Virus record (IMG/VR): IMGVR_UViG_3300042888_000094
Location: 1 to 43,491 of that record
Strand: one strand, 5' to 3'
DNA length: 43,491 nucleotides
From: a virus
The notes under the pieces were generated by a model. It ran no database searches. It worked only from the letters and a program-made list of their open reading frames with translations, and was not told the origin of the DNA. Numbering within the stretch: position 1 is the stretch's first letter; every line of letters begins with the position of its first letter. The position numbers were made by a program, and so were the translations under genes. Below, one piece after another: positions 1,544 to 36,981 of this stretch.

Positions 1544-1561
1544 GATCCCCCCTCAGGATTG

Positions 1562-2024: not shown

Positions 2025-3280
2025 TGAGTTGCTCCTAATCTTTTTTCATATCGTTCTAACTGTGCACGACCAGACAATGAGTTCTGGAAGACCTTACCAT
2101 CACTGGCCGTTAGGGTGGAGACCTTAACAGATGTATCGACCTTAGCATTGACTTTGTTCAGCCCCAAATTCTCACGGGCTTGATTCATCTTCTTACCAAA
2201 GGATGCTAGGTACAACTTGTAGAGGTGGGGTGCCTCATCGCCAATGTTCTGGAAGTTGCGCTCATCTGCCATAAACAGTTTGAGCAGTTCCAACTCGACT
2301 AGGGCTGTGGTCTGGTACTGCTTACGAAACTTACTAAGTGCTCCCGACAACTGTCGCACGTTGACTGTGCCTGGAAGGAGCGGGTAGCGTTTACCAACTC
2401 GATATGAGAACTCAGCAGCGACATCCATGGGAGTCCATTCATGATCAGGTCGCTTGCCTCTGGTCTTTGGGTCTGACTTGCGGATCTTCGGCTGAACAGC
2501 ATCCCGCTCCTCAACAAGGCCGAAGCCTGCAAGATTGTCTGAATCATCTTCCCATTTTCTCATAGGCACTCGTATCTCTTTCATTGAAACACCTTCGGTG
2601 TTTCTAATATCTTTTAATTGATTACTATCTTTGCTATTAGGTACTAATGGCTTATTAGTAATATGGCTACGTGACTTATAGTCATGTGAGGTGTGGACAT
2701 TATCAGTGTGGACATTTTCAGTACGGACATTCTTGTCCAGTATTTTGTTGCCTTTTGACAGATTGCACAGTGCGTGTGCTGGACGTAAGTTGTCCTCTGT
2801 GTCTGTACCGTTTTTTGACAGTGGTACTACGTGATCAAAATGCAGTCCTCGTTCCCATCCTGGTAGCCCAGTCTGACGTGTAACTGTGAGGTCGATCTCC
2901 TCATCGCAGATGTGGCATTTGGTTCCGTATTTATCAAGCAGATCTTGCTCAGAAAAATCCCAAGAACTTGAGTTCAATCGTTTAGTTTGAGCAGTCACTC
3001 TTGGGTGTGGGTTTTCTGGGTAATGGACAGAGTAGATGTCCACGCCTCGAAACCCATTTGCTCTTCTAGTGCTTTGACGGCTAACCCACCCATGCCCTTC
3101 TAAAGCCACCAGAGCCCTTCTGACGGTCTTTTCACTTACATTGCCAGTCCATACCTGCAACTGCTCAATAGAGACCTTCAGAGTGCCTTCAGAGCCCGTA
3201 TTTTGACATAGCGATACCAATAGCCTGTACTGATAACTTGACAAGTAAGATGTTTGATCTGTTCTTGGTATCTCTATCAT
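2021..3280 (-). CDS. Replication initiator-like winged-helix protein with internal HNH nuclease domain
   Basis: A 419-residue three-part protein. Residues 10-85 form a winged helix-turn-helix of the kind found in phage replisome organisers (VSEKTVRRALVALEGHGWVS). Residues 120-180 carry an HNH endonuclease signature: C122-x2-C125, D149-H150 in FDHVVPLSKNG, N164, and H169-x2-C172-N173 with K176 (HALCNLSK). A polar linker with short NVHT-type repeats follows (about 183-200). Residues 290-400 form a helical C-terminal domain, perhaps DnaD/organiser-like. The start overlaps the previous gene's TGA. A DnaC-like loader follows two genes later, so an origin-binding role is likely. An HNH homing-type insertion, or a genuine nicking function at the origin, are both possible. 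Confidence 0.75.
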   Translation of the reverse strand: MIEIPRTDQTSYLSSYQYRLLVSLCQNTGSEGTLKVSIEQLQVWTGNVSEKTVRRALVALEGHGWVSRQSTRRANGFRGVDIYSVHYPENPHPRVTAQTKRLNSSSWDFSEQDLLDKYGTKCHICDEEIDLTVTRQTGLPGWERGLHFDHVVPLSKNGTDTEDNLRPAHALCNLSKGNKILDKNVRTENVHTDNVHTSHDYKSRSHITNKPLVPNSKDSNQLKDIRNTEGVSMKEIRVPMRKWEDDSDNLAGFGLVEERDAVQPKIRKSDPKTRGKRPDHEWTPMDVAAEFSYRVGKRYPLLPGTVNVRQLSGALSKFRKQYQTTALVELELLKLFMADERNFQNIGDEAPHLYKLYLASFGKKMNQARENLGLNKVNAKVDTSVKVSTLTASDGKVFQNSLSGRAQLERYEKRLGATQ

Positions 3281-7835: not shown

Positions 7836-9391
7836 TAAAGTTCGCCAAGACTTACGTTTGATTCAGTGAAACGAAATATTTCACTGGCAGTACCAGTAAG
7901 GATATTTAATCCACTACCGCCTTGACGGTAGAGAGTAGTAACTCGTGCAACCTTTACACCAGCAACTTGTGCAAGAACAAACTCAATATCTTGTGGGTAT
8001 ATGGTGTCTTGAAAGTTTACTCCAGTGTAACCAAACTCACTTAACAACTTAGATTTTATACTTAGTTCAAGTTCTGCAGTTGTGTATTGAGCAAGTTTTG
8101 TGTATTGAATTGCGATGATTACATCTACATAAGTAGGTGGCTGTATAGTGACTGTTGTCCCTAATAAAATTTTGTCTGCAAGGTAAGTTTCAACATCTTC
8201 TTTTAGACGAGTGTACTCTAGGGAAGGGTCACCTTCTTCATCAAGTCCTGGTTGTGGGTCTGTGTCTACTGAACTACGGCTTGGTGCAATGTGAACAGTT
8301 ACCGAAGTCCACACATCAGCAATCGCGCTTGCCTTTCCAACACCGCTTACACCTAAACAGAGGTCTGCATAATCTTGAAGAGTTACTGCCCTGTTGTTTG
8401 CACGAAGCGAGATTGGTGCTGAAGTTCTAATCTGGTCTGTGCTTTCTGGATCAGAACCACCGATAGCAGTGAACTCATTTGTTACATCAATTGTGCTCTG
8501 TAATGCAGTGGTTTGTCCCTCTGTTAATCCAGGGACATAAAAGAAGGTCTCAAGGGTGCCCGTGGTTATATTACCTATTTCCCCTCCACCTACTGTGTAC
8601 TTAGCACGAATCTCTGAGTAAGACGTTGGAATAACACCTGATATTCCATCACCAAAATTTACATACACAAAGTTGTCTTCGTCTAAATAAGTAGTAAATA
8701 CAAGGTCAGTTGGACCATAGTCAATCAGATGTTGTACCTCTAACCATTTAGAAAAAACATCTCCATCTTGTACATAGATTTCAATTGATCCGTCTACAAC
8801 GGGCGTCTCTCCTAGTTCAAAAATCATATTTGGTAATCCAGTGGATGTACCAATAAGTTCTCCATTTATGGTTGCGTTGTCAGCAATCAGAATGATAGAA
8901 CGTCCTTCGTATGCAGTTGTGTATGCTATTCCTGCAACTCCTTCTAGTTGCTCTGGTACCGCAATATCATTTGCGGTTGTAAAGTAAACAGTCTCTACAA
9001 TGTCGCCAGTGACTACAGTTCCAGACACAATAGTTCCAGCAGGTATTGTGACTTCGGTTTCCGATGTGTTTGTGAAGGTTAATGTTGTATACGCTTGACG
9101 ATACCCAGCAGGGGCATAGCCGTATGTTTGAGCAATATTTAACACGCTTTGTCGCTGTGTTGCTGTGCTGATAAATGACTCATTAGCATTACGGTCAATG
9201 TAATAAGAAATCAAGTCTCCCATGTAAGCAAAGGCTTCTACAAGAGCAACGCCAAAGTCTGCTGGGTCTGATGCAGTCCATTCAGGTATTCTGTTTTGAA
9301 TACGTGCAATTAGTTCAGAACGAATTGCATAGTAATCACGTCCTGTGTAGTCGATAGATACAGGGATATTAGATGCTGGTGTTACGCTCAC
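7835..9391 (-). CDS. Baseplate wedge protein J (gp6/gpJ-like)
   Basis: A 518-residue baseplate J family protein, normal in length. The N-terminus carries the family hallmark of an R-DY-AIR-E-L motif followed by 'DFGVALVEAFAYMGDLISYYID' (residues about 18-70). The middle contains the repeated beta domain (TIPAGTIVSGTVV), and the C-terminus holds the segment with ISLRANNRAVTLQDYADL. In contractile tails this protein forms the baseplate ring with gp25. It starts at GTG with a GAGGAGA SD and overlaps the gp25 gene by four bases. Confidence 0.9.
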   Translation of the reverse strand: MSVTPASNIPVSIDYTGRDYYAIRSELIARIQNRIPEWTASDPADFGVALVEAFAYMGDLISYYIDRNANESFISTATQRQSVLNIAQTYGYAPAGYRQAYTTLTFTNTSETEVTIPAGTIVSGTVVTGDIVETVYFTTANDIAVPEQLEGVAGIAYTTAYEGRSIILIADNATINGELIGTSTGLPNMIFELGETPVVDGSIEIYVQDGDVFSKWLEVQHLIDYGPTDLVFTTYLDEDNFVYVNFGDGISGVIPTSYSEIRAKYTVGGGEIGNITTGTLETFFYVPGLTEGQTTALQSTIDVTNEFTAIGGSDPESTDQIRTSAPISLRANNRAVTLQDYADLCLGVSGVGKASAIADVWTSVTVHIAPSRSSVDTDPQPGLDEEGDPSLEYTRLKEDVETYLADKILLGTTVTIQPPTYVDVIIAIQYTKLAQYTTAELELSIKSKLLSEFGYTGVNFQDTIYPQDIEFVLAQVAGVKVARVTTLYRQGGSGLNILTGTASEIFRFTESNVSLGEL

Positions 9392-9789
9392 AGGTTCTCC
9401 TCATACGGTGGAAGGTTTCCTCTTACAGTTACTATACCGATGGTGGTATCAACTACAAGATCATTAGGTAACTTATAAACAATTGTCACATTTATTACGT
9501 TTGTGTAAGAGTCAAAAGAACTGCTTACAGAGTCCAATGTTAATAGTGGAAGATGTTGATTAAATGCTTGGGTCGTTTCTATGGAGATCTCTTGCTCCGC
9601 AGCCTCCTGAGTATTGAACACGGAGTAGGGGATATTAGTCCCAAACTCAGGGCGCATTACTCTTTCCCTTAAGAAGGTACCAATAACAGACCGAACACGA
9701 TCAGCCCAAATTTTAGATTGGTCACTTGTCTGTGTAACTTTTCCATAAGGGTCAATAGAAAACGGCAGTGCCATAGTCTTTTCAGCCAT
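9388..9789 (-). CDS. Baseplate wedge protein (gp25/gpW-like)
   Basis: A 133-residue GPW/gp25-family protein that plugs onto the first sheath ring and connects it to the baseplate wedge. Family features are the strand MALPFSIDPYGKV, a helix, then the conserved RERVMRPEFGTNIPYSVF segment (about residues 38-60). A beta meander follows (INVTIVYKLPNDLVVDTTIG). The ATG overlaps the stop of the hub gene (TAATG). Order and size agree with P2-like and T4-like baseplates. Confidence 0.9.
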   Translation of the reverse strand: MAEKTMALPFSIDPYGKVTQTSDQSKIWADRVRSVIGTFLRERVMRPEFGTNIPYSVFNTQEAAEQEISIETTQAFNQHLPLLTLDSVSSSFDSYTNVINVTIVYKLPNDLVVDTTIGIVTVRGNLPPYEENL

Positions 9790-11042
9790 TATCTACCTAC
9801 CCATCTAGTTGGAGTCACTTTAAATCCTCCAGCATTTGCGGTTATCAAAGGTGCTGGAGCATTAAGTTTAGTGTATGTTGGTCGACTTGGAGCACCTGTT
9901 GTTAGTTCTTGGTTAACATTTCGAACAGGCACTAGACCTGCCTGTGTTGGACGAGTAGAACTTGGCTTATTTGCACCGACTCCATCAGTCATACATGTAA
10001 AGTCAACTTGATAACGACCATCAAAAGTTAAAAAATGCATAGAGCGTTTTATGACCCAGAAGCCGTCAGTTGATTCACCCGTTCCTGTTATCTCTATAGT
10101 GCGGTAGGGAGCGATACGTGGGTCTCCTTGACCCGAACCCTCAGCGTAGATTGAGAAACGTGACAGTTGAGCATGAGCATCAACAATGGTCTGTGCCATT
10201 GCAGGACTTGCGGTAATTGAGCCAGGAAGAGTCTCTTTAAAGAGTGGATCACGGGTATCTTTTCGGAGTCCTCGACCAACAGAGTTGGGGGAAGATGTTA
10301 CGGTGTAAGATCTACCTGTTACAGGATCAATACCTGAAAGACTCTTTTCTTTTCTTGTAAATGCACGGCTGTCAGAGAAATCCCCAAGACGTGGCTTGAA
10401 TACGTCTAGCGTTTGAGGTAGTACTTCTGAATACGGATTTCCATAGGAAAGGTTAAAAGACATCACAGGGATGGTGGTCATGAACTTGTCTATCATAATA
10501 TCTATAGGATGAAAATGAAGTTCTGTCTTGTTCATCTGTGCAACATACCCAAGACGAGACGCAAGTTCTTGGATCTTCTCCCAACGAGTATGCCCCGCTA
10601 GAGACTGTTGGTTAAAGATCATCTTGTGCGGAGTTACAAAAGGCTTTAACTTTAGGTTATTAGCAATTTCTGAAACAATGTCTGGTGCTGTCTTTTCTTT
10701 CCAAATCTTATTCCCGCCTTCTTTTAAGGCAAGGGAGGCGCCAATACAGCGAATAATTATAGGTCTAGAAAGACTTTGGTTTGCTGTGCTCATTCCATCA
10801 TAGACGTACCCATAAAAATTTTCTGAGGTCTTATCATTACTCCATTTAATTTCAACAGGCACACCAGTCTTTAAAGATTTTAAATAGAAGTTGCTGAATC
10901 GTGGGTAAGTCAACTCTACGATGTCTTGTTTTCCAGCCTCTTGGTATATCTTTATGCTCTGAGGAGTAACTGTCCAAGTTGGAAAATTTGGAAAAATAAC
11001 TTTAAACTTAGACCCAGTTCTATTTTGGACTGCTCTATTCAC
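9789..11042 (-). CDS. Baseplate hub protein (gp27/gpD-like, late control D type)
   Basis: A 417-residue protein resembling the gpD/VgrG N-terminal (gp27-type) hub. It has an early beta domain (QDIVELTYPRFSNFYLKSLK), a central segment with APDIVSEIANNLKLKPFV and RWEKIQELASRLGYVAQ characteristic of the family, and a C-terminal beta part (DGFWVIKRSMHFLTFDGRYQ). It should form the trimeric ring through which the tube connects to the spike. It has a GTG start with an eight-base overlap with the LysM gene and an AAGGA SD. Confidence 0.8.
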   Translation of the reverse strand: MNRAVQNRTGSKFKVIFPNFPTWTVTPQSIKIYQEAGKQDIVELTYPRFSNFYLKSLKTGVPVEIKWSNDKTSENFYGYVYDGMSTANQSLSRPIIIRCIGASLALKEGGNKIWKEKTAPDIVSEIANNLKLKPFVTPHKMIFNQQSLAGHTRWEKIQELASRLGYVAQMNKTELHFHPIDIMIDKFMTTIPVMSFNLSYGNPYSEVLPQTLDVFKPRLGDFSDSRAFTRKEKSLSGIDPVTGRSYTVTSSPNSVGRGLRKDTRDPLFKETLPGSITASPAMAQTIVDAHAQLSRFSIYAEGSGQGDPRIAPYRTIEITGTGESTDGFWVIKRSMHFLTFDGRYQVDFTCMTDGVGANKPSSTRPTQAGLVPVRNVNQELTTGAPSRPTYTKLNAPAPLITANAGGFKVTPTRWVGR

Positions 11043-11312: not shown

Positions 11313-12671
11313 TTATCGATTACCCGTCAATCCCGCTAATTTTGCTGGGTCTGATATCCCATACAGTTGACCATTAGTTCCGACTCCAGACCCTGTTGTT
11401 GTTTCAGGGCCATCATTCATTCGTGAGCAGGTTATCTTGACGCTGGAGAAGATAGGGACCATTCGGTCGTTAAACATTATGTGGTTAACCGCAAACTCTC
11501 CAATACGAACTCTATAACGCATTGCATTTCCTAAATGTAATTCTACAAATTGTGGACGCATCCATGCACGGTCTGCTGTACTCCCATTTAAACCCGAAAC
11601 AAAAGTTCCAGAAGGACCATTGACAGTCTTAAAGAAGTACTCGAGGTCATACATTGTTCCTTTTTGATAGATTTCTTTCAAGTCTTCTGGACTCACATCA
11701 AGTGGATAAGGGCTTTTTGCAGAAGGTCTTAACCCAGTCTCGTCTAAATAATTAAAATCAGCAATACGATTTAATACTAACTCAAATGACACAGTGCTGG
11801 ACATTAACGCGGTAGACACAACTTGAAACTTATCAAGTTGACTTGCTTGAAAGGTAGGGTCCATAGAATTCATTAGACCCCAAGCCATACTTACAGTGTT
11901 TGGGTTGTAGAGAAACTTAAACCCATACTTCTGTAAATCAAACTTACTATCCGCAAAGTCAGTACTGGTAAATGATTGCAAGAATTTTTTATCCATTTGG
12001 ATAGTTCCACGTCCACCTTGAACTCCTTGCCAGGCTTGTCGTGCATCTGTAAAGTTTCCTTGGTCAACATGATTACCATCTAGTAACCGACTCTGTATAT
12101 TTTCCATTCCAAAATAAGCAGAGTTAACCATAGGTGCGTTGTACTTATAGTCAGCAGAGAATGCTTTCTTTTCTCCTTTTGGCGCTGTTTTGTCTTTCTT
12201 TTTCTTTTCTTCTGCTGTTAACTTCTTTTTAGCCTCAGCCAGAGAAGTAGGAAAAAGTAATGGATTTGCATCTGTAAGTTGTTTTCTTATAGTCTTTATC
12301 TGTGCTTCAGCATTTGAAATTACAAGATTTTTTTTAGCCACTACCGCTTGGTGTGGCGCCAATAAAGATAAGATTTGATTCAAGGTCGTTGTGTCTGATC
12401 CACTTGGATAACCAGGCTCATTCTTATGGGCTCTGACGTAGGCATTATAAGCACTTTGATATTGGTTTACCAAGACCTCGGCTGCAAGCAAGTCTTTTGT
12501 TGCTGGACCAATAATTCTTTGAGTTATGTCAGTTATAGATTTGTTTAGTTGATTGTTTAATGCTTTCTTTTCATCTTCTGCTTTTTTAGCAGCACTACGC
12601 GCATTATCAGCCGCTCTCCATTTTGCAGTGTTGGCTTTATAATTTGCCTCAAATTCAGATTGAGTACTCAC
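11313..12671 (-). CDS. Baseplate/tube-initiator-like protein with N-terminal coiled coil
   Basis: A 452-residue protein. The first 170 residues are a long, very Lys/Ala/Glu-rich helical region with coiled-coil character (AAKKAEDEKKALNNQLNKSI, and KKLTAEEKKKKDKTAPKGEK). The C-terminal part (about 240-430) resembles contractile-injection-system tube/baseplate proteins that pair with a LysM protein (YGFKFLYNPNTVSMAWGLM, VSFELVLNRIADFNYLDETG, and VRIGEFAVNHIMFNDRMVPI). The GTG start overlaps the tape measure stop by one base. It probably connects tube to hub. The long coiled coil is unusual and might contact the tape measure. Confidence 0.65.
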   Translation of the reverse strand: MSTQSEFEANYKANTAKWRAADNARSAAKKAEDEKKALNNQLNKSITDITQRIIGPATKDLLAAEVLVNQYQSAYNAYVRAHKNEPGYPSGSDTTTLNQILSLLAPHQAVVAKKNLVISNAEAQIKTIRKQLTDANPLLFPTSLAEAKKKLTAEEKKKKDKTAPKGEKKAFSADYKYNAPMVNSAYFGMENIQSRLLDGNHVDQGNFTDARQAWQGVQGGRGTIQMDKKFLQSFTSTDFADSKFDLQKYGFKFLYNPNTVSMAWGLMNSMDPTFQASQLDKFQVVSTALMSSTVSFELVLNRIADFNYLDETGLRPSAKSPYPLDVSPEDLKEIYQKGTMYDLEYFFKTVNGPSGTFVSGLNGSTADRAWMRPQFVELHLGNAMRYRVRIGEFAVNHIMFNDRMVPIFSSVKITCSRMNDGPETTTGSGVGTNGQLYGISDPAKLAGLTGNR

Positions 12672-15169
12672 TATGAACTCCCCATTCTTGAAATCTCATT
12701 GTCGTTATCGAGGTAGGTCTTTACTAATTTTGCAAAGTGCATTGCTTCTTGCTCTGTAGCACGCTCAATTTTAAGAGTTACATTTACAGTATTGTTGCCT
12801 TGAGCAACCATTGGTGTAGTTGGCATCGAGGCACCGTAACCAGAAGTTCCTCCTCCACTAGGTCCACGATTAAAGTTGAACTTGTACGGGCTCTTTCCTT
12901 TTTCTCCTTGTACCCATGCAGAATTCTGAATATTCTTGAAGGTATCAGTGTATGGAACACCAGCCTTTAATCCTTCAAGAATAGCAGTGTAACCACGTTC
13001 ATTAGCACGATTTCCTGTTAATGTTGCAAGGGTTGCAGCAACTCCTTGCTGTGAATCTACATATTTCTTTACTCCAACTTTGTTTCTACTGACAGCACCT
13101 GGCATATCAAGGGTTGTGTTTAGTGGGTTGTTGTTAACTGATGGATCAACTCTACCGCTTTCAAAACGAGCCCACTCAGTCATTGCGTAAATGTTGTCTT
13201 TTGTAATAGGTGCACCAGCAGAAGTTAAGAATGCTTTTGCCCATTCAGCCGCTCCTGGGCCCGCTGCACCAACAGCGTTAGTAGCAACAGTTGATTTAGC
13301 CGCTGGGGCTGTGCTTGATGTCCCTGTTTTACTTGATTTACTTGAGGTTGTTCCTAATAAATCTGACGATGTAGGGATGATTGATGCGTAAGCAATATTT
13401 AAAAGAGAGTTTGATGATCCACCAGACAGGTACTTGTTTGGATCTACTGGGTTGTTCTTTCCTTTACGCATTTCAAAGTGTAGGTGAGGCCCATCAACGT
13501 TTCCTGAATCACCTGACTTACCAATTCTTTGACCAAGTTTTACTGCTTCTCCAACTTTTACAGAACGTACACTTAGGTGTGCGTAGATAGTCTGTGTTCC
13601 ATCAGCGTGATCAATCATTACTGAAGTTCCGTAGTCAGCATTTAAATCAACTTGTGAAACTACTCCATCAGCGTAGGCAACTGTTACTGGGGTTCCCTTA
13701 GCAACTGCGTAATCCATACCTGTGTGTGTTCCACCTGTTGACGCCCAAACTCCTGAGTTGTCAGTTGCACCATAGCCAGCACTGACTGCTGCTCCTGCGA
13801 CAGGACTTCCTCCACCACTTCGACCACGGTTACCAACACCAAAAGATGCACCGTAGCCAGTTGTTCCACCGCCTCCGCTTGTAAGAAGTGAGACACCAGC
13901 AGTAGCAGCCGCAACTCCTCCCACTCCTCCAGTAACTGCCCCAATTGCAGGAGAACCAGCAATTAAAGCAACACCAGCGGCTTTCTTCAGGATGCTTGCA
14001 ATTCCAGCACCAGCAGTTCCAATCCCAGCACCTGCGTTTGTTCCACCAACGCCACCAAGATAACCTTTTAGTTGTCCTAAAGGCTCAACAACGTTAGAAA
14101 GTGCCCTATTAAATGCTTCTACTGTGTCTGCTGCGTTTTCAAATCCTTTTATCATTCGATCTTCGGACTTAGTCATCAACGAAGTTTGTGAGGCGTTCAT
14201 GCGACCTGCAGCAGTAAGGGCGGTGTTCTCGTTGCCCTTCATTGGCTTTGCTTTAGATAAGTCAGGATTACGACCAGATGCGATATCAATCATTGACTGG
14301 TACAAGATCTCTTGCTGTGCAGCATCAAAGCCCATAGTAGAAAGGTTGGCTCCTAGAGCACCCTTCTGGTATGAGCGACGCACATCTTCAGTAGAAACTT
14401 TTGCTCCACCAGTCATGTAGTTCATTAATTCTTTAGCAAGTTGACCTGTGGTCTTTTCTTTACCGCCTGCAGTCGTAGTGCTAATTCCATATTGGAATAA
14501 GTTTGCTCCCATACCACCAGACTGAAATCCAGCAATTGCTTGAGTAGCCGCAGCATTTTCCATCCCAAGATATTTATAGGCTCCGCCCACTTGTGCTGCT
14601 ACTTGTTTGTAGTTTGCACTTCCTGGGGTGTACCCACGACCAGCCAGCATCGCAGCAACAACTGAGTCTGACCCAACGCTAGACAATCCGCCGCCCATAG
14701 CGCCAAATGTTGCACGCTCTAGTTGGTTGCGGTTGATCCCTGGAGCACGAAGTCCTGCCTGGTAATAGCCAACAGAACGCTGCAAAGTAAGTGCGACATC
14801 AGGAGTGGCAGCATATGCCCCCGCAGCCATTGAGAAGCCTGCGCCTACTGCACCAGTGGCTATTTGACCACCAGTACTTTGAGCAAAGGAACTGAACTTA
14901 CCCATGCTCCTAGAGATAAGGTTGCCACCACCTGCAGCAGCACCCTCACCAAAATTAGCGCCGTCTGCTCCAGTACCTACTCGGTTGGAAGACTTACCAA
15001 GATTCATAGATCCACCAACGGTGCTTACTGCACCCTTGGCATCTTTGAGCGTCTTTCCTGCAACGATGTTTACTTTAGCAAGTGCTGCGTAGAGTTCGTT
15101 GACGTGCTTGGTTAAGCCAGTTACGCCTTCGGATAACGACTTAATATTCGCTACCATTTTGTTAGCCAT
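12671..15169 (-). CDS. Tape measure protein with M23 peptidase and lysozyme-like region
   Basis: At 832 residues this is the longest tail gene, placed after the tail assembly chaperone as expected. Residues 1-390 are helical, Ala/Gly-rich tape measure sequence. About 395-430 is a hydrophobic Gly/Ala stretch that may insert into membrane. About 470-580 is an M23/LytM metallopeptidase with all zinc ligands visible: HTGMD (H and D near 483-487) and GPHLHFEM near 563. About 640-770 resembles a lysozyme-superfamily domain (YAMTEWARFESGRVDPSVNN, then NPLNTT). The end is a short beta segment. It should fix tail length and cut peptidoglycan during DNA entry. SD AAAGGA precedes ATG. Confidence 0.85.
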   Translation of the reverse strand: MANKMVANIKSLSEGVTGLTKHVNELYAALAKVNIVAGKTLKDAKGAVSTVGGSMNLGKSSNRVGTGADGANFGEGAAAGGGNLISRSMGKFSSFAQSTGGQIATGAVGAGFSMAAGAYAATPDVALTLQRSVGYYQAGLRAPGINRNQLERATFGAMGGGLSSVGSDSVVAAMLAGRGYTPGSANYKQVAAQVGGAYKYLGMENAAATQAIAGFQSGGMGANLFQYGISTTTAGGKEKTTGQLAKELMNYMTGGAKVSTEDVRRSYQKGALGANLSTMGFDAAQQEILYQSMIDIASGRNPDLSKAKPMKGNENTALTAAGRMNASQTSLMTKSEDRMIKGFENAADTVEAFNRALSNVVEPLGQLKGYLGGVGGTNAGAGIGTAGAGIASILKKAAGVALIAGSPAIGAVTGGVGGVAAATAGVSLLTSGGGGTTGYGASFGVGNRGRSGGGSPVAGAAVSAGYGATDNSGVWASTGGTHTGMDYAVAKGTPVTVAYADGVVSQVDLNADYGTSVMIDHADGTQTIYAHLSVRSVKVGEAVKLGQRIGKSGDSGNVDGPHLHFEMRKGKNNPVDPNKYLSGGSSNSLLNIAYASIIPTSSDLLGTTSSKSSKTGTSSTAPAAKSTVATNAVGAAGPGAAEWAKAFLTSAGAPITKDNIYAMTEWARFESGRVDPSVNNNPLNTTLDMPGAVSRNKVGVKKYVDSQQGVAATLATLTGNRANERGYTAILEGLKAGVPYTDTFKNIQNSAWVQGEKGKSPYKFNFNRGPSGGGTSGYGASMPTTPMVAQGNNTVNVTLKIERATEQEAMHFAKLVKTYLDNDNEISRMGSS

Positions 15170-22631: not shown

Positions 22632-23945
22632 TTAGCCGATGTTGACCCATTGAACTACCCAAACTTTATGGCCCATAAACTCAATCAACTTAGTGGCTGA
22701 TTTGCTCTTAGAGGATAAGTCCAGATACCTCTGGTGATAGGGGTACTTACACAGGAAGAGTTTATTATGGCCAAGTGCAAATGGGACCAGAGTAGGAGAT
22801 TCTCCTAGGTACTTGACTAGGCCGTCTAGCACCCCTAGCCAGTGTGGATGCAGGATATCGTCAAGGATGACTACTCCACCATCTGCCACATACCTCTCCG
22901 CTAGTCTCAGATCATTAAGGGTGTGAACCTTGGTGTGCCCACCATCGATCGAGAAGTAACGAATAGAGCCTGCTGGGATTGTTTCCTCTAGTTCATCTTG
23001 GGTCTTGCTGGAAGTAGAATCGCCCTTAATAATTTGGATTCCTTCTCCAGCAAAGGCATCATACTTATCGATGTAGCCTTTGAATATACCTTGGCGTGCC
23101 TTGTTGGTTCCACTGAAATCTACATTGAGATCCTGATCTTCAAAGATATCGATACCGTAAGAAGGCTCCGCCTTGTCGAGCATAGCGCGTAGGAGTAAGA
23201 AGAAGCGTCCCATGTAGACTCCGAGTTCTGCAACTCCTCCTTCTTGATTCCATTCAACATCTTTTATCAACCGCAAAAATTCTGGAAGATCAGCAAGTAC
23301 CCAACCAGGAACAGATTTAAATCCTTCTGTTAAGTATTTGTCAAAAGGGTTGTTCTCTGCAGTTGACTCATAGGACATTCCTAGTCGGTCCATGTTTTCT
23401 TTGATAGCGTTACGATATAAGTCTGGAAGATTCTGCTTGAGTAAATTTTGAAAAATAGTTTGACTTTCATCTTGTCGTCCTACCCACCACGCAGCAACTG
23501 CCTTTTCAAAGGGAAGAACAAAGTCGCCAGCATAATCAACATCAACTGGAAGTGGGAAAAATATAGATGGAAGATTTTGAATACCTACTTCAGCAGCAGT
23601 GTAAGCCTCTTGCCATTTCTGGTTTCGTTCGTAATAACGAGCAAGTAAGAACCACGCCTCTGGACGTTTAGGGCTGTAAGCAATTGCCTTCTCCATTAAA
23701 TTGCGAACAGTATTCTCTCTTCCTTTCTGGTTCTCAAAACAATGTGCAGCCTTTAAAAGAGATGCATAGACATGCTCTCCATGAGTGTAGTAGCCGTACT
23801 CAGCGGTACGAAGATAGAAAGAGACAGCAGAGGCTGTCTGTCCAACACGCTCATACTCCACAGCAATTCTTAGGCTTAACCATGGATTAAATGGGTCATT
23901 TGATAATTTAACAATTAGATCATTTATCGACTCATACTGCACCAT
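22632..23945 (-). CDS. TPR protein fused to class I SAM methyltransferase
   Basis: A 437-residue protein taken from the ATG at 23945, which has AGGAGG nine bases upstream; an earlier in-frame ATG at 23963 has none. Residues about 1-190 look like tetratricopeptide repeats (PEAWFLLARYYERNQKWQEA, then YTAAEVGIQ). Residues about 230-420 form a Methyltransf_24-like domain: motif I ELGVYMGRF near 240, acidic YGIDIFED, RYFSIDGGHTKVHTLNDLRL, and GGVVILDDILHPHW near 365. Such TPR-methyltransferase fusions often act on sugars. It overlaps the GH130-like gene by 14 bases, so the two are co-expressed inside the fibre block. Confidence 0.8.
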   Translation of the reverse strand: MVQYESINDLIVKLSNDPFNPWLSLRIAVEYERVGQTASAVSFYLRTAEYGYYTHGEHVYASLLKAAHCFENQKGRENTVRNLMEKAIAYSPKRPEAWFLLARYYERNQKWQEAYTAAEVGIQNLPSIFFPLPVDVDYAGDFVLPFEKAVAAWWVGRQDESQTIFQNLLKQNLPDLYRNAIKENMDRLGMSYESTAENNPFDKYLTEGFKSVPGWVLADLPEFLRLIKDVEWNQEGGVAELGVYMGRFFLLLRAMLDKAEPSYGIDIFEDQDLNVDFSGTNKARQGIFKGYIDKYDAFAGEGIQIIKGDSTSSKTQDELEETIPAGSIRYFSIDGGHTKVHTLNDLRLAERYVADGGVVILDDILHPHWLGVLDGLVKYLGESPTLVPFALGHNKLFLCKYPYHQRYLDLSSKSKSATKLIEFMGHKVWVVQWVNIG

Positions 23946-24939
23946 AAGAAAGCGCCTCCTCAATCATTGTGGTTACCAATTGCTGTGGTACCTCTAGAAC
24001 AAAAGCGGCATTATCTTGGAAGCCAAATCCAACAACTAAATTATCCTCAACAATTGCTGCTCCACAAACAAACTCAATCTGACCATCAAGAAATGACCAA
24101 GACTCTGGTGATATTCCTATGAGAGTAAATTTCTCATCCCATACACACAGGCGATGACGGTATGTTCCGTTCTTTTGTTTTAGGTAGTTCTTAAACAAAA
24201 CTACCTCATGAGTAATAGCGATGTAATATTTCCCCCACTGCAGAACTTGAGAACCACCACGTTGGTCTGTGGGTGGCTTTACATTTTCAGTAACAAATAA
24301 TTGTTGAGATTTACCTGTCTTTGGGTCTGCCTTGACTACCTCTGTAGGAGAGGTCCACTTGATATATTGAAATGGGCGATCAAGAATTGGCATCCAGTTC
24401 TTTTCGCAGTAGGAGTCTTTATCAATAGGCGCTTCAATACGAATACGAGAGACCTCTTTAGCAGTCCAGTTCTTTTTATCAATCTCTAACTCAGATAATT
24501 CCATACGTCCTTGACCGTTAGTAGTTGTGTCACGGCGAACTCCCGTGGCGTAATACTTACCATGCCATTTAACAAGACGGGCATCTTCTTCTCCAACGAA
24601 TGTCCAGATGGGTTGTACATCTAACTTTGTCGTGTCTATTAGTGTGTAGTCGGTGATGTTGTACTCTTTGTCTAGACGACACAAGAAATTCTGCGTAACA
24701 AGACGCTGGTCTTTCTCAGGATGAAGGTACGACAATGGTCCCCAAATACTTGGAAATCTTTGGGCATTCTCTGAATGGTAGAGGGTGTAATTAATATGGC
24801 GAAGAATGACAAGAAGTTCTCCGTCATCATCTACGAAAGGGGATGGGTTCATTAACCCAGTACCACCTGTTACTGAGGCGGGTATGATTAGAGGGCGAAG
24901 TTTTCCGCCATGTTGTACCGATTTTTGTACCAGATTCAT
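23932..24939 (-). CDS. GH130-like five-bladed beta-propeller protein
   Basis: A 335-residue protein with family-like elements spaced as in glycosidase/phosphorylase propellers. It shows GLMNPSPFVDDDGELLVILR (about 29-48), FVGEEDARLVKWHGKYYATG (about 114-133), an EKNWMPILDRP block (about 181-191), RGGSQVLQWGKYYIAITHEV (about 229) and FGFQDNAAFVLEVP near the end. The ExDxR and KNW-P elements recall GH130 mannoside phosphorylases, but I cannot confirm the full catalytic set. The ATG lacks a nearby SD (CTTCCCCCC precedes it), and no other start exists before an upstream stop. It probably acts on glycans of the host surface or of the virion. Confidence 0.65.
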   Translation of the reverse strand: MNLVQKSVQHGGKLRPLIIPASVTGGTGLMNPSPFVDDDGELLVILRHINYTLYHSENAQRFPSIWGPLSYLHPEKDQRLVTQNFLCRLDKEYNITDYTLIDTTKLDVQPIWTFVGEEDARLVKWHGKYYATGVRRDTTTNGQGRMELSELEIDKKNWTAKEVSRIRIEAPIDKDSYCEKNWMPILDRPFQYIKWTSPTEVVKADPKTGKSQQLFVTENVKPPTDQRGGSQVLQWGKYYIAITHEVVLFKNYLKQKNGTYRHRLCVWDEKFTLIGISPESWSFLDGQIEFVCGAAIVEDNLVVGFGFQDNAAFVLEVPQQLVTTMIEEALSYGAV

Positions 24940-24983
24940 GGGGGGAAGTCTAGCGGTAGTTCTTGTGGCTTGCGAGTTACTCT

Positions 24984-25005
24984 TCCTAAATTGTTCCTAA
25001 ATTGT
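24984..25005. repeat. Tandem 11-bp repeat upstream of the GH130-like gene
   Basis: Two perfect head-to-tail copies of TCCTAAATTGT (plus strand) lie between the stop of the fibre-partner gene and the GH130-like start. The region has no SD and no hairpin. It may have arisen by slippage or may bind a regulator. Confidence 0.5.
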
Positions 25006-25370
25006 CAGGGTTGTTCGATTTCTACCCAACTCAAGGTCGTTTCATCCCAATAACGTGCTTTACCCTCTGTTGGATACGGAATTGGTGGGTCCCATATCCA
25101 GGTGTCTTCGTTAAATGCCCAAGATGGATACGGTTGAGGGGGAATAAAAACATCTTTAATTGGGTCGTAGGTAAAGTTAATTCCTGCGTATTGCTTGCGA
25201 AAATTTCCATTGTATGAAGTTTGTATCCAAGTACCACCAAAAAGATTGACGCAAAAGTCAATACCTTTTTGTTCAGATTCATCTCCATTTTCATCAAGTA
25301 ACTCGTTGTTGTGTACAACAATTACCTGCCGAACTGTATTTGTCTCATCTAATTCTGCGAAGTGTGCCAT
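25005..25370 (-). CDS. Fibre-partner protein, paralog A (tail-fibre assembly-like)
   Basis: A 121-residue protein whose ATG overlaps the stop of the glycine-rich Fn3 protein (TAATG). Sequence landmarks shared with the paralogs at 27201 and 31893 are an initial HFAELDETNTVRQVIVV, the central WIQTSYNGNFRKQYAGI, TYDPIKDVFIPPQPYPSW, and a Trp/Pro-rich end (WDPPIPYPTE, then WDETTLSWVEI). The family is frequent next to fibre genes in environmental phages. A chaperone or tip-cap role for the adjacent adhesin is inferred from the repeated gene pairing. Confidence 0.7.
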   Translation of the reverse strand: MAHFAELDETNTVRQVIVVHNNELLDENGDESEQKGIDFCVNLFGGTWIQTSYNGNFRKQYAGINFTYDPIKDVFIPPQPYPSWAFNEDTWIWDPPIPYPTEGKARYWDETTLSWVEIEQP

Positions 25371-26725: not shown

Positions 26726-27201
26726 GCAACAAGGTCTCCGCTTACTGTAAAGGTATTAGTCCCAGTACAAATAATTGCCGCCATACTATATTGGGCTCTT
26801 AATTTTAACCCAGGTGTGGAGGTGATAGTCACACCGCTTGCCACAATCGTTGTCTGTCCTGCACCGATCTGTTGAGCATAAATTACTTGACCTGTAGTAA
26901 ATGTTCCAGAAGGTACTGTCAAGTTATTTGCTGTTCCAACGCTCATAGTAACAATCTTATTGACATCTGATGCTTGTATTTCATATGAGGCCGTTTTAGC
27001 ATTAAATACATAGGTAGGAAGAGTTCCAGTAGTGCCTTGAGTTCCTGTACCAGTTGTTCCTTGGACTCCTTGGACTCCTTGAACTCCTTGGGCAGTACCG
27101 ACAGACTGCCATACGGTTCCTGTCCAAATCCAAGTACGTCCTGAATAGGTGTAGGTAGTTACGTCAGGTGTTAACCCCGTTGTTGGAAAATCAATAGGCA
27201 T
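26722..27201 (-). CDS. Short collagen-like tail protein with beta-rich tip
   Basis: A 159-residue protein. The N-terminus has a 'YTYSGRTWIWTGTVWQSVG' segment of the type that opens several fibre proteins here. A short Gly-x-y collagen run follows (GVQGVQGVQGTTGTGTQGTT). The rest is a C-terminal beta domain (LTVPSGTFTTGQVIYAQQIG, ending FTVSGDLVA), shared in outline with the 127-residue protein at 6342 and with the tip of the 1125-residue fibre. It probably forms a short homotrimeric fibre. It overlaps neighbours on both sides by one to four bases. Confidence 0.7.
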   Translation of the reverse strand: MPIDFPTTGLTPDVTTYTYSGRTWIWTGTVWQSVGTAQGVQGVQGVQGTTGTGTQGTTGTLPTYVFNAKTASYEIQASDVNKIVTMSVGTANNLTVPSGTFTTGQVIYAQQIGAGQTTIVASGVTITSTPGLKLRAQYSMAAIICTGTNTFTVSGDLVA

Positions 27202-27599
27202 TATTCTATTCCTGGTCCTACTATGGGCATTTCATCAATGGGACTAGTGGATTCTTTAGGAAGTTCCCAGGTCTGTTCCTGTTCGTTCCATATATAGAGG
27301 TTATCATAATCAGGACGTTCCTTGGGTGCCTTCCACTTACAGGTTTCTTCATCTAAGGTCCAAGACTCAAAAAGTTTTGGAGGTATAAAGGCGTCATACA
27401 CCTCGTCGTAGGTGTACCCAATACCAGCATAGTTCTTTCGAATATTGCCATTGTAAGAAGTTCTAACGCACCTTTGTTCCCGCTCTTGTGAGTAGTACAA
27501 CTCCCAGTCCTCTATCCCATCGATTACTTCGTCTTCATTTCTTCCAACGATAACTTCAACAACAATATTATTTTCATCCAAAAATGCATAATGTGCCAT
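27201..27599 (-). CDS. Fibre-partner protein, paralog B (tail-fibre assembly-like)
   Basis: A 132-residue protein starting in TAATG overlap with the 888-residue lectin/glycine-rich adhesin. Conserved landmarks are HYAFLDENNIVVEVIVGRNE, CVRTSYNGNIRKNYAGIGYT, DAFIPPKLFESWTLDEETCK, and a Trp-rich end (WNEQEQTWELP). Compared with its paralogs it carries an acidic insertion (DGIEDWELYYSQEREQR). It sits directly downstream of its presumed partner, the same arrangement as the other copies. Confidence 0.7.
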   Translation of the reverse strand: MAHYAFLDENNIVVEVIVGRNEDEVIDGIEDWELYYSQEREQRCVRTSYNGNIRKNYAGIGYTYDEVYDAFIPPKLFESWTLDEETCKWKAPKERPDYDNLYIWNEQEQTWELPKESTSPIDEMPIVGPGIE

Positions 27600-32230: not shown

Positions 32231-33604
32231 CTATCCTCCTACCTGTGACCTTGTATAACGGACTATGCAAATACCTTGGAACCCACTACCTGAATTTTTT
32301 CTAGAGGCCGCGACTCCACCTGCTCCACCACCGCTACCGTAATAAGTAGCATTACTTCCAGCAGCCTGATAGTCACCACCGTTACCACCACCACCTGAAC
32401 CGCCAGTAGTTCCAAAGGTAGAATATCCTGCACCACCGCCACCGCCAGCAAGGGTAAGTCCGAAGAATGTTCCACCAGCGCCGCCATTGCCAGGTACGTG
32501 ACCTGTTGCCGCTGCCCAACCGCCTCCACCGCCGATACCACCGCCGCCACCGCCGTCGCCGTTGTAGCCTTTACCACCACCGTTGCCTTGCCCTGGTGCT
32601 GGGGAACCTCCATAGTTTTCATACGGTCCACTACCGCCACCACCAGAACCACCATAACCGCTTTGACTATTATTTCCGCGTCCACCACCACCACCAACGG
32701 CTGTAGTTACTCCAGTACAACTAGAAGCGTTGCCAGAAATACCACCTCCGTACTCGCCAGGATTGCCACCACCGCCACCTCCAGCACCAATAACAATAGA
32801 TGCGTTAGAAGAAAAAGATGTGTCTCCGTAAACAACTCCTCCTGCACCGCCGCCACCGCCAGCATCACCGCCTCCGCCACCTCCTGCTACAAGGAGAATA
32901 GTTGCTGAAATTGGTCCAGAAACTCCCAAAGTGCCATTGCCAGTAAATGTTCGGTAATAGTAAGTCGCATCAGATGTGAGCGTTCCGCCAGTAACTACAG
33001 GAATAGGAACAACAGGAGTTACAGAGTTAGATGCAGCAGATGCAATTGAGGTTCCATTTGCGTTAGTTGCTGTAACTGTAAATGTATAAGCAGTTCCGTT
33101 TGTAAGACCTGAAACTGTAATTGGGCTTGCACCTGTACCAGTTAATGAACCTGGAGAAGATGTTGCTGTATAAGTAGCAGCCTTGCCGCCAGTTGCGTTT
33201 GCTGTATATGTAACAGTTGCTGATGCATTTCCGCCCGTTGCAGTTCCGATAGTAGGTGCTTGTGGAACAGTTGTCGCGGTAATGCTATTTGATGCAGAAG
33301 AAGCCGCAGATGTTCCTATTGCGTTAGTAGCAGTTACTGTAAATGTATATGAAGTAGATGAAGCAAGGCCAGTAACAGTCAGTGGTGATGAAGCCCCTGA
33401 TGCTGTAAATCCACCAGGTGAACTTGTGGCTGTGTAAGAGGTGATAGAAGAGTTACCGTTATACGAAGGAGCGGTAAAAGTTACAGTTGCAGCGCCGTTG
33501 TTATAGGCGCGAGAAGTTCCTACATCTGTTGCCGTTCCAATAGTCGGCGCTCCAGGTTTACCCTTGCCTGAACTTGCAACAAGGCTTCCTACAACTCCAG
33601 TCAT
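32231..33604 (-). CDS. Fn3 plus glycine-rich adhesin, copy 2
   Basis: A 457-residue paralog of the protein at 25370-26725. Residues about 15-205 hold two Fn3-like domains that are close to the other copy (GAPTIGTATDVGTSRAYNNG; TATSSPGGFTASGASSPLTV). The glycine-rich domain differs in sequence (YENYGGSPAPGQGNGGGKGY) and ends in a strand followed by basic residues (GICIVRYTRSQVGG). The protein therefore keeps a shared stalk and carries a different tip, as expected for receptor-binding proteins under diversification. Its start overlaps the 1125-residue fibre's stop by one base. Confidence 0.8.
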   Translation of the reverse strand: MTGVVGSLVASSGKGKPGAPTIGTATDVGTSRAYNNGAATVTFTAPSYNGNSSITSYTATSSPGGFTASGASSPLTVTGLASSTSYTFTVTATNAIGTSAASSASNSITATTVPQAPTIGTATGGNASATVTYTANATGGKAATYTATSSPGSLTGTGASPITVSGLTNGTAYTFTVTATNANGTSIASAASNSVTPVVPIPVVTGGTLTSDATYYYRTFTGNGTLGVSGPISATILLVAGGGGGGDAGGGGGAGGVVYGDTSFSSNASIVIGAGGGGGGNPGEYGGGISGNASSCTGVTTAVGGGGGRGNNSQSGYGGSGGGGSGPYENYGGSPAPGQGNGGGKGYNGDGGGGGGIGGGGGWAAATGHVPGNGGAGGTFFGLTLAGGGGGAGYSTFGTTGGSGGGGNGGDYQAAGSNATYYGSGGGAGGVAASRKNSGSGFQGICIVRYTRSQVGG

Positions 33605-36600
33605 TAGGTCAGGCCATTTCCGCTAATCATCCAGGTAGTAGATGCGATCTTGACTGCAGTCGCTATGCCGTATGCAGCAAGTGTACGAGAGCCTGTAGTT
33701 CCAGGACCTGCTAGATACATTGTGTCAGAAGTAATTGCGATAGTCGTAGTTGCACCAACGCCAGAAATAAAGGTTAATGCAGTTCCTACTGGTAAGGCTA
33801 GGTTAGTGTTTGAATCAATTGTAATTGTACGAGTAGCAGTTGAGTAGATGTGCTTTCCAGCATCTGCCACTGCGACTGTGTAGGAGCCAGTAGTTGTAGA
33901 GTTTTGAGGCAATCCCATAAACCCGATACCACTGGCGGCTGTAGTTGTTGTTCCATCTACAACTGAATTTGCAGTAATTGTGTTGCTAAAGTTATTTGTA
34001 CCAGTCCAGGTATTGTTGGTGCCTTGTATCGCTGCACCTGAGGTTCCTTGGGCTCCAGTCTCTCCCTGGGTTCCTGTTGCTCCTTGGATGCCTGTAGTTC
34101 CTTGGGTTCCTGTTTCTCCTTGAGCACCTGTAGTTCCTTGAGGGCCAGTCTGAGCATCTGCAGTGGTATCAAGCCATAAGACACTCTGACTAGTGGGGGC
34201 AGTTGCAGCAGAAACTACTCCCTGTAAACCTGTTTCACCTTGAATTCCTGTTTCGCCCTGAGTACCAGTCTCTCCTTGAATTCCTTGTGTGCCTGTAGTT
34301 CCAGTTTCTCCTTGGATACCTTGGGTTCCTTGAATGGAGTACATAACCTGTACTGCTGTAACAATAATTGAAGGAACCGCAGGAGATACAGGGGATGTTC
34401 CTGCTGGTAATGACTCTACTGTTAACTGGGTACTTGTACCTGCCCAATAGATCTGAACTTGCTGTCCTGCTGTCGCTGTTGCTACATAGTTAATAGTAAT
34501 GACTTGACGGTTAGGAATACTCGCTGATTTACGAGGCGGTAAGTCTATCTCTGTGGCTGAATCAGGGTAATCAACATTGTTGGTCTTTAACCAGAAGGTT
34601 GCCCTTTCCACAGAGTTAGCAAGATTTGTAATCTGGATAGAAAATGTAAGGCTGTATGTACCAGCATATGCAAAGGTAATTTGGTTACCATTGACGATGC
34701 TCACGCCATTGTTTTCAGAGGTATTACCGAGTGCAATAACTTGCGCGGTTGTAGCACTTACCAATGGCTGGTCTGTTAAGTCAAAGAATGAGCCGTAATA
34801 CCCTAAAGCACCGCCAGCGCCAGTATTACCTGTTGTACCTTGAACACCTTGAATAGACAGGCCCTGAGTACCTTGTACACCAGTAAGGCCTTGAGTACCA
34901 GTTGCTCCTTGGATGCCAGTTTCACCCTGGGTACCCTCACCTGTAGTTCCTTGTGCACCTGTAGTTCCTTGGGTTCCTGTAGTTCCTTGCGCTACAAACA
35001 GAGTCCACCAAGTACTTTCACTTGGCGCTACTCCATCAATGGTTTGAATACAAAGCCAAGAAGAACCGTTGTAAGTAACAACGTGGTTTACGTAGTATTG
35101 AGTTCCAGCGTTGTACGCTCCCCGTACTGTAATTCCAATTTCACCTTGAGTACCAGTAGTACCCTGGATACCAGTTTCTCCCTGAGTACCAGTTTCGCCT
35201 TGAGTACCTGTAGTTCCTTGAGTTCCAGTCTCGCCTTGCGTACCAGTCGTACCTTGAGCGCCTTCAACGCCCTGTGTACCAGTCTCTCCTTGTGTACCAG
35301 TCTCTCCTTGTGTACCAGTGGTTCCTTGAACTCCAGTTTCACCCTGAGTTCCAGTTGTTCCTTGCGTACCAGTTTGGCCTTGTAGACCTTCAAAACCTTG
35401 AAGTCCTGTTTCGCCTTGGGCTCCAGTAGTTCCTTGTGCACCAACGTCACCTGTGCGAGCAAATGTAAAGAGAAGTTCTTCTCCATTAGTAAATGCTCCT
35501 TGACCAGATACATAACTAACTTCTACATCAAACCAGTTTGGTGCTGAATCTGTAACACCAGAGATTGTGTAGAGAGCAAAAGTAGCCGTATCAAATTTTC
35601 TAGAAACCTTTACGTGACCCTTGATGGTAGATGTTGAATCATCAATAGTGGTTAAAAAGTTAGAGACGTCGTAATTACCGTCAGCAGGATTATCATCTAA
35701 TGCAAGATGTGTAACTAAAGTTGGATTAGCGTTGTTAAAACGAGCATTGTTGTCGCCTGGGTCTGCAAGTGTGATGGTGTCATCATAGTTGTAGATAAGG
35801 GTGATACCACCGAATGAACCTTCGGTTCCTTGAGTACCAAGTTCACCTTGAATTCCTTGAATACCTGTTTCGCCTTGTGCGCCTTGGGCTCCAGTCTCTC
35901 CCTGGGTTCCTGTTGCTCCTTGGGTACCTGTAGTTCCTTGAGTACCAGTCTCTCCCTGTGTCCCTGTTTCTCCCTGAAGGCCAGTTTCACCTTGAGTACC
36001 AGTTTCACCTTGAGTTCCTGTTGTACCTTGAGCACCATCAGAACCGACGTAGCCATCTGTACCTTGTGCTCCTGTTTCGCCCTGTGTACCTGTATCACCC
36101 TGAAGGCCAGTCTCTCCTTGAGTACCTATAGTTCCTTGGGTTCCTTCTGTTCCTTGAACTCCTTGTGCAGCAAGTAATGTCCAGAAAGTTCCTTCTGCTG
36201 GAGTGTCTCCAACGTTGCCGCCATTAGGATTCAGGCGGTACCAAGTCTGCCCATTATAAGTTACTACATCACCAGTTGCGTAGGAGGTTCCACCGCCGTA
36301 AGCGCCAGTAAAGTTCCAGAGGGCATCTGTGCCATCGCTACCGTTGTACCCTTGTACACCTTCAGTACCTTGAGCACCAGTCGTACCCTGGGCACCTTCA
36401 AATCCTTGTAGACCTGTCTCTCCTTGGGCTCCAGTAGTTCCCTGGGCTCCCTCAACACCTTGAGTACCTTCAATACCCTGAGTTCCAGTTTCACCTTGAG
36501 TACCAGTCTCACCTTGAGTACCAGTTTCTCCTTGTGCACCTGTAGTTCCTTGAGTACCGTGAGGTAGGTAAAGATCCCATTCAGCAGCATTTCCAACTGG

Positions 36601-36981
36601 GTCTGCTAGTCCTCCGCTTGCGGTTGCGATGTATAGGTTTCCGTCAGAGCCAGATACAACAGCAATTCCACTAATATAACCATTCCCATTTACATAGTTA
36701 CCTAAGTAAACAAAACCAGTTCCTGTAGTACCTACTGTACCTTGAGCACCCTCTGCACCTTGTAAACCTGTTTCTCCTTGCGTACCAGTTTCACCCTGTG
36801 TACCAGTTTCGCCCTGAGTACCAGTTGCTCCTTGGATGCCTGAAGACACAACCCATTGCGCCCCATCATAGGTGCGTATAACTTGTTGTACTGAGTTCCA
36901 GTAGGAATCACCTGCATTATGACCTGTAGGGTCGCTAGGCAGGCTAAGTAACCCTAGCGGGACTAAGACCTTACGTGACAT
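33604..36981 (-). CDS. Large collagen-like fibre with C1q/TNF-like jelly roll
   Basis: A 1125-residue protein. It has an N-terminal contact segment (DPTGHNAGDSYWNSVQQVIR, YDGAQWVV), then long Gly-x-y collagen arrays dominated by TGTQGETGTQGETG-type triplets. These are interrupted by small globular domains. Two are CBM5/12-like Trp-rich modules near 225-275 (GDVVTYNGQTWYR) and 618-665 (VVTYNGSSWLCIQ). A beta domain is at about 393-505, and a C1q/TNF-like jelly roll is at about 722-880 (NQITFAYAGTYSLTFSIQIT and TATAGQQVQIYWAG). The last 100 residues match the tip domain of other fibres. Expected to form long trimeric fibres that bind surface glycan. Confidence 0.8.
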   Translation of the reverse strand: MSRKVLVPLGLLSLPSDPTGHNAGDSYWNSVQQVIRTYDGAQWVVSSGIQGATGTQGETGTQGETGTQGETGLQGAEGAQGTVGTTGTGFVYLGNYVNGNGYISGIAVVSGSDGNLYIATASGGLADPVGNAAEWDLYLPHGTQGTTGAQGETGTQGETGTQGETGTQGIEGTQGVEGAQGTTGAQGETGLQGFEGAQGTTGAQGTEGVQGYNGSDGTDALWNFTGAYGGGTSYATGDVVTYNGQTWYRLNPNGGNVGDTPAEGTFWTLLAAQGVQGTEGTQGTIGTQGETGLQGDTGTQGETGAQGTDGYVGSDGAQGTTGTQGETGTQGETGLQGETGTQGETGTQGTTGTQGATGTQGETGAQGAQGETGIQGIQGELGTQGTEGSFGGITLIYNYDDTITLADPGDNNARFNNANPTLVTHLALDDNPADGNYDVSNFLTTIDDSTSTIKGHVKVSRKFDTATFALYTISGVTDSAPNWFDVEVSYVSGQGAFTNGEELLFTFARTGDVGAQGTTGAQGETGLQGFEGLQGQTGTQGTTGTQGETGVQGTTGTQGETGTQGETGTQGVEGAQGTTGTQGETGTQGTTGTQGETGTQGETGIQGTTGTQGEIGITVRGAYNAGTQYYVNHVVTYNGSSWLCIQTIDGVAPSESTWWTLFVAQGTTGTQGTTGAQGTTGEGTQGETGIQGATGTQGLTGVQGTQGLSIQGVQGTTGNTGAGGALGYYGSFFDLTDQPLVSATTAQVIALGNTSENNGVSIVNGNQITFAYAGTYSLTFSIQITNLANSVERATFWLKTNNVDYPDSATEIDLPPRKSASIPNRQVITINYVATATAGQQVQIYWAGTSTQLTVESLPAGTSPVSPAVPSIIVTAVQVMYSIQGTQGIQGETGTTGTQGIQGETGTQGETGIQGETGLQGVVSAATAPTSQSVLWLDTTADAQTGPQGTTGAQGETGTQGTTGIQGATGTQGETGAQGTSGAAIQGTNNTWTGTNNFSNTITANSVVDGTTTTAASGIGFMGLPQNSTTTGSYTVAVADAGKHIYSTATRTITIDSNTNLALPVGTALTFISGVGATTTIAITSDTMYLAGPGTTGSRTLAAYGIATAVKIASTTWMISGNGLT
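35120..35450. repeat. Collagen-coding tandem repeats, array 1
   Basis: Degenerate 9- and 18-base repeats encode Gly-x-y triplets of the 1125-residue fibre (plus-strand units such as CCAGTCTCTCCTTGTGTA). Synonymous changes distinguish most units, so the array is coding and not recent slippage. Boundaries are approximate. Confidence 0.7.
35818..36170. repeat. Collagen-coding tandem repeats, array 2
   Basis: A second array of Gly-x-y coding repeats within the same fibre gene, with units such as GTACCAGTTTCACCTTGA. Similar shorter arrays occur at about 34020-34330, 34830-34990, 36340-36560 and 36730-36840. Recombination between arrays could shorten or lengthen the fibre. Confidence 0.65.

Follow-up and report, generated by a model that had tools for sequence, protein, structure and literature searches.

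Gene pair and its surroundings

The window, i.e. the whole stretch of 43,491 bases that was analysed, corresponds to IMG/VR record IMGVR_UViG_3300042888_000094 and belongs to a contractile-tailed phage, in which tail sheath, baseplate wedge and major head protein were recognised. Two genes on its minus strand, one for a putative propeller enzyme and one for a TPR-methyltransferase protein, lie among genes for glycine-rich, FN3, collagen-like and lectin-like phage tail proteins. The following features were delimited:

24947..24952, minus strand: TAGACT, a -10-like element 13 bases ahead of the propeller start, without Shine-Dalgarno sequence
24939..23932, minus strand: putative propeller enzyme gene, 335 aa, ATG start
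24583..24585, minus strand: codon of D119 in the G-E-E-D-A-R motif, counterpart of the GH130 catalytic Asp
23955..23960, minus strand: AGGAGG, Shine-Dalgarno sequence of the TPR-methyltransferase gene, within the 3' end of the propeller gene
23945..22632, minus strand: TPR + Methyltransf_24 gene, 437 aa, ATG start
23382..23945, minus strand: TPR domain, about residues 1-188, which relatives retain
22854..23228, minus strand: Methyltransf_24 core, residues 240-364, with SAM motif I, SIDGGH and LDD

Counted from the ATG at 23945, nine bases upstream of which AGGAGG is found, the second gene overlaps the first by 14 bases; the open reading frame list gives a longer form with a TTG start at 23963. 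Both this overlap and the setting among fibre-type genes, as described in the initial annotation, were confirmed, with both reading frames in place and neighbours of tail type. In the propeller, GEEDAR occupies residues 116-121 and EKNWMP residues 179-184. The pair is not a chance product of open reading frames, because other viral contigs contain homologues at 84% identity and dN/dS is ~0.05. Compared with locus L001, the propeller had a dN/dS of 0.059 and the TPR-methyltransferase one of 0.048; dS is near saturation, so both values are rough. Strong purifying selection acts on both proteins, which are hence maintained, and the gene pair is real, conserved and, judged by its conservation, functional.

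Three further observations concern the same phage. Two phrog_7759 paralogues of unknown function (25005-25370 and 27201-27599, minus strand), each directly downstream of a Gly_rich_2 gene region, are possibly fibre-assembly helpers duplicated along with their fibres. A 1125-aa collagen-like tail protein (33604-36981, minus strand) contains 8 collagen stretches and two chitin-binding-type CBM5/12 modules (E 6e-9), and may be a collagen fibre binding a polysaccharide. An 832-aa protein (12671-15169, minus strand) with an endolysin/metallo-endopeptidase-type domain in its middle is probably a tail-associated cell-wall hydrolase.

Fold and active site of the propeller

No Pfam, PHROG or NCBIfam family was convincingly matched by the window propeller alone, and PDB sequence searches with the single protein or its profile gave nothing significant. 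An AlphaFold2 model, built with 63 homologues of 20-84% identity, was a five-bladed propeller (pLDDT 89, pTM 0.89). Its best Foldseek matches were GH130 entries, headed by the beta-1,2-mannobiose phosphorylase 7fir (E 6e-10, TM 0.62/0.67), and GT108 mannosyltransferases of Leishmania were matched as well (6q4x, E 4e-8). Comparison of the propeller profile with 18 cellular GH130 proteins gave an alignment of 259 columns with E 1.1e-5 and a moderate probability of 82%. For Pfam PF04041, the window propeller was below detection and 24 of 64 members matched weakly (E up to 0.1, best 2.8e-4); PF04041 was found neither in the record itself nor in the five genomes whose contigs hold homologues. The earlier description as GH130-like thus holds at the level of the fold, by model and Foldseek, but not at that of curated families, none of which was matched by the window protein alone.

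Residues N31, R47, E118, D119, R227, H244, Y260 and D309 were invariant across 64 homologues. In the GH130 profile alignment, N31, R47, E118-D119-x-R121 and D309 were paired with conserved N, R, E-D-P-R and D. In BT3780, N74, E141, D142, K199 and D363 bind substrate, and mutants have lowered or abolished activity (PMC4599007); N31, E118, D119 and D309 are the counterparts of N74, E141, D142 and D363. The catalytic Asp, whose retention had been proposed as a check, is therefore kept, as D119 is invariant and aligned to the Asp of GH130 EDPR. By manual motif alignment rather than structural superposition, the profile alignment being poor in mid-protein, K180 (EKNW) corresponds to K199, the beta-1,2-mannoside Lys of BT3780, and K194 and R227 are basic where GH130 hydrolases carry glutamates; R227 and H244 lie at sites where phosphorylases have basic residues and a YHG motif.

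A virion protein that retained the fold but has no catalytic function, serving in sugar binding or structure instead, would suit the position of the gene among tail genes and a weak, non-significant likeness to a Photorhabdus lectin (E 0.12). Given the invariance of the catalytic residues in 64 homologues and fusions to FkbM and to TPR in relatives, this explanation is considered very improbable.

TPR-methyltransferase protein

Both domains of the 437-aa protein passed their Pfam cut-offs, TPR_17 with E 1.4e-7 (31.6 vs 24.4 bits) and Methyltransf_24 with E 9.4e-14 (52.6 vs 26.3 bits), and ELGVYMGRF is motif I of the latter, so that the proposed SAM-binding methyltransferase behind TPRs was borne out. 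The TPR part was modelled as a helical solenoid of ten helices, the fold of which resembles the TPR of O-GlcNAc transferase (OGT) and SPINDLY. For the whole protein, pLDDT was 85 but pTM 0.58, which makes the relative domain placement unreliable. Fold matches of the methyltransferase include CalS11, a TDP-rhamnose 3'-O-methyltransferase, which is only suggestive of a sugar as substrate; a PDB sequence search with the methyltransferase profile gave nothing significant. GG-x2-E-x-G-x3-G, D78, D146 and D174-D175 (A4 numbering) were invariant in 11 sequences, the acidic residues being metal-site-like. Neither enzyme has thus lost its catalytic or SAM-binding residues.

Modification of phage DNA by the cassette, through base hypermodification or methylation, could be read from the PHROG label 'DNA methyltransferase' on related methyltransferases (phrog_2675). 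This label is annotation only, however, the domain belongs to Methyltransf_24 and its fold matches include a sugar O-methyltransferase, and no DNA-binding domain was seen; a role in DNA modification is accordingly given very little credence.

The cassette in relatives

Searching a viral collection with the window protein yielded at least 599 matching stretches, of which 597 were confirmed. The same search with the copy of Synechococcus phage DSL-LC02 also yielded at least 599, a set that may overlap the first. Of 184 propeller copies, redundant ones counted too, 171 had a TPR gene at most 1.5 kb downstream. Following reduction of the propeller loci at 90% identity to 88 representatives, the TPR gene directly followed the propeller, within 150 bases, in 77 (four of these cut by the contig end), and a TPR protein was found within 1.5 kb of the propeller in four more. 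In 21 of the 88, the TPR gene stood alone within 3.5 kb, without any of the sugar enzymes that were modelled.

In the domain tally, the TPR protein stood alone in some loci; in others it carried Methyltransf_24 (as in the window), FkbM, or both, one at either side, or it was followed by separate Methyltransf_24 and GT25 genes. Bigger versions of the cassette contained GT2/GT7C, GT17, GT25, FkbM and WavE domains, and RMNT_CmcI was also among the partners. Single-protein fusions were of the propeller-TPR (L134), propeller-FkbM (L138) and TPR-propeller (L175, L169) types. The window propeller is 84% identical to that of L001, whose TPR carries Methyltransf_24, and 78% identical to that of L005, whose TPR carries FkbM and which has a GDP-mannose dehydratase/epimerase-type gene upstream. 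From these comparisons, what is conserved is the combination of propeller and TPR, and the enzyme on the TPR is exchangeable. Of the coupled propeller and methyltransferase proposed at the outset, the linkage to the TPR gene was upheld; the methyltransferase is not a fixed partner, being swapped or absent in relatives.

Several loci showed peculiarities of their own. L033 carries two diverged cassettes on opposite strands, at 8001-10311 (plus) and 91-2341 (minus); Methyltransf_24 is present in one of them and FkbM in the other. The TPR-FkbM protein of DSL-LC02 (L093, 9959-12112, plus) runs on into a radical SAM + SPASM domain. The TPR protein of Synechococcus phage S-SCSM2R (L092, 9962-11827, plus) has DUF6445 at its end; it is annotated as 'cytochrome c-type biogenesis protein', probably wrongly and on account of its TPR.

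The cassette is carried by hundreds of phages from lakes and the sea, within or close to their tail-fibre genes. When 84,980 species genomes were scanned, with two short patterns only and not exhaustively, ten candidates were returned. Nine lie in MAG or bin contigs and are probably phage DNA binned with hosts; the tenth is a short weak match in Streptomyces. Among cyanobacterial genomes, 3 of 386 matched, two of them distantly. In BFVD, the closest viral folds outside phages were uncharacterised proteins of pithovirus-like and other giant viruses, suggesting wider use of similar propellers; proteins named fucosyltransferase, WcaK and LicD were also matched. In the literature searched, no paper on a propeller + TPR cassette was found, and the main text of the DSL-LC02 genome paper mentions neither mannosyltransferase nor FkbM.

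Expression signals

The propeller gene lacked a Shine-Dalgarno sequence in 33 of 34 loci of the window clade; such sequences were commoner in TPR genes (32/71). A sigma-70 consensus scan having given fewer sites than shuffles, a shared element was found by comparison of loci: TAnnnT stood 11-14 bases before the propeller start in 29 of the 34 window-clade loci, against 3.6 +/- 1.8 after shuffling, a comparison that overstates independence, the loci having a common ancestry, even if many of the genes around them are different. The propeller was the only one of 42 genes in the window with this element, and in the other propeller clade it was not characteristic (6/44). TAnnnT resembles a leaderless promoter, from which the cassette would be transcribed separately. 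Leaderless promoters are known from Actinobacteria, and the element could hint at an actinobacterial host. A T4-type late promoter upstream of propellers was also considered and discarded as weak (TATAAATA 4 vs 2.0 expected, NATAAATA 13 vs 5.8).

Glycan building or trimming

The direction of the propeller reaction was approached through a cyanobacterial relative, P0001 (L215, 55-2241, plus strand; 729 aa), which consists of an N-terminal GT2 glycosyltransferase followed by TPR and propeller. Its TPR matched the phage TPR profile (E 1.8e-10) and its propeller part the phage propeller family (E about 2e-23). This propeller part passed the cut-off of Pfam BMT (GT91, PF12141) with 30.7 vs 28.3 bits, over the stretch with KNWMPF, RGGSQ and HEV, and the same motifs are conserved in the phage propellers. 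The phage propellers themselves gave no BMT match, and the link to GT91 is thus a transitive one at the sequence level, via P0001. A BMT search of 386 cyanobacterial genomes gave one match only.

Because of the GT91/GT108 relationship, the basic residues at hydrolase glutamate sites, the GT2 fusion and the partner domains, glycan building is favoured over trimming. We infer that the propeller is a putative nucleotide-sugar-dependent transferase, the favoured activity, with phosphorolysis possible too; that the pair builds glycans, whatever the target, is likely. Trimming or salvage of glycans by the propeller as a mannoside phosphorylase or mannosidase, with the methyltransferase acting separately, would agree with the identity of the best single fold match, the weak GH130 Pfam matches of 24 of 64 members and the position of K180. 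Against it stand the partner domains, the GT2 fusion and BMT match of P0001, the lack of hydrolase-type glutamates at the motif positions of R227 and K194, and the sequence itself, in which no secretion signal is apparent, so that outer glycans would be out of reach. Such an activity is unlikely, and the degradative reading was not kept as the main one, the partner domains being glycan builders. Of the two activities first suggested for the pair, trimming or methylation of glycans, methylation is in line with the sugar-O-methyltransferase-type domain, and trimming gives way to assembly.

Proposed mechanism and acceptor

The pair is best explained as a cytoplasmic glycan-assembly cassette, for which we infer the following order of steps. 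The TPR protein would act as a scaffold and bring the acceptor, to which the propeller, as a GH130-superfamily inverting sugar transferase of the GT108/GT91 type, would add a sugar, the donor most likely being of the GDP-mannose type. The methyltransferase domain would then cap the added sugar by O-methylation. In other phages, the same propeller + TPR core carries different glycosyltransferases or sugar O-methyltransferases. As acceptor, the phage's own tail-fibre or adhesin proteins, encoded around the cassette, are favoured. Taken as a whole, this explanation, including the adhesins as favoured acceptor, is put forward tentatively, at a little under even confidence.

Tail-fibre-type genes were present near 20 of 26 window-clade loci; tail-fibre genes flank the DSL-LC02 cassette on both sides, and the S-SCSM2R cassette adjoins an annotated baseplate gene. 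In mycobacteriophages Che8, Corndog and Myrna, phage-encoded glycosyltransferases decorate virion proteins, according to the relevant passage of PMC12363180. On the tail-gene neighbourhood, the OGT-like TPR and this precedent, a virion acceptor is given a slightly better than even chance, provided that the pair builds glycans. In 8 of 20 loci, every tail-type neighbour had the orientation opposite to that of the cassette, which, together with the cassette's own promoter element, would also fit host takeover.

The same enzymes could instead act on the host surface polysaccharide or its precursors and close the receptor to other phages (superinfection exclusion). Besides the leaderless-type promoter element and the opposite orientation, such a target would be in keeping with the partner families GT25 and WavE, which are LPS-synthesis families, and with the similar interpretation of cyanophage glycosyltransferase clusters (PMC7824862). 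However, no membrane anchor or lipid-carrier glycosyltransferase was seen in the cassette, the OGT-like TPR suggests protein acceptors, and the tail-gene neighbourhood persists. If glycan assembly is granted, a host-envelope acceptor is a serious candidate at less than even chance; superinfection exclusion as an overall explanation is doubtful.

GXX (collagen) repeats were frequent in the flanks, amounting to about 3-7% of bases and occurring within 5 kb in 34 of 78 loci, and did not peak near the cassette. Collagen as substrate, an idea prompted by GT25, was for that reason kept only as a possibility.

Meaning and comparison with known systems

Most of what is known about glycosylation by phages concerns DNA modification, O-antigen conversion and a small number of actinophages with glycosylated virions. 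What would be new here is phage glycan modification resting on a propeller enzyme family absent from the libraries and related to GH130, GT108 and GT91. This family has no curated phage family of its own and occurs in very many aquatic phages. A broader and rather speculative proposal, which we regard as possible but unlikely, is that these phage-enriched, undescribed propeller glycosyltransferases and their TPR adaptor form an exchangeable glycan-writing platform, in which domains swapped between phages vary the glycan coat of the fibres. Should the glycosyltransferase reading of the propeller be confirmed, phages would gain a propeller-fold glycosyltransferase family and a source of tractable beta-mannosyltransferase-like proteins would become available, and it could be tested directly whether phages mark their own attachment fibres with sugar codes.

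Phage-encoded sugar enzymes are common to the window phage and the mycobacteriophages with glycosylated virions; the virion target is a proposal for the former, and the passage of PMC12363180 on the latter does not mention a propeller enzyme, a TPR scaffold or an exchangeable cassette. With GH130 (PF04041), the window propeller shares the five-bladed fold and the active-site N, R, E-D-x-R and D, but it has KNW.P and RGGSQ motifs and travels with TPR, methyltransferases and glycosyltransferases. The GT108 enzymes of Leishmania (MPT-1/2/4) have the same fold (6q4x, 6q50) at about 9-13% identity, and we know of no TPR partner for them; GT108 enzymes unite transferase and phosphorylase activity (PMC8476585). 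As to the fungal beta-1,2-mannosyltransferases of GT91, the BMT cut-off is passed by the cyanobacterial propeller relative and not by the phage members. TylF/CalS11-type sugar O-methyltransferases resemble the window methyltransferase by Pfam and fold match, with SAM motif and acidic pair kept; the window enzyme differs in its fusion behind TPR and in having no PDB match by sequence. In OGT and SPINDLY, as in the window protein, a TPR solenoid is joined to a glycan enzyme, but in the window it is a methyltransferase that is attached to the TPR, with a separate gene for the putative glycosyltransferase.
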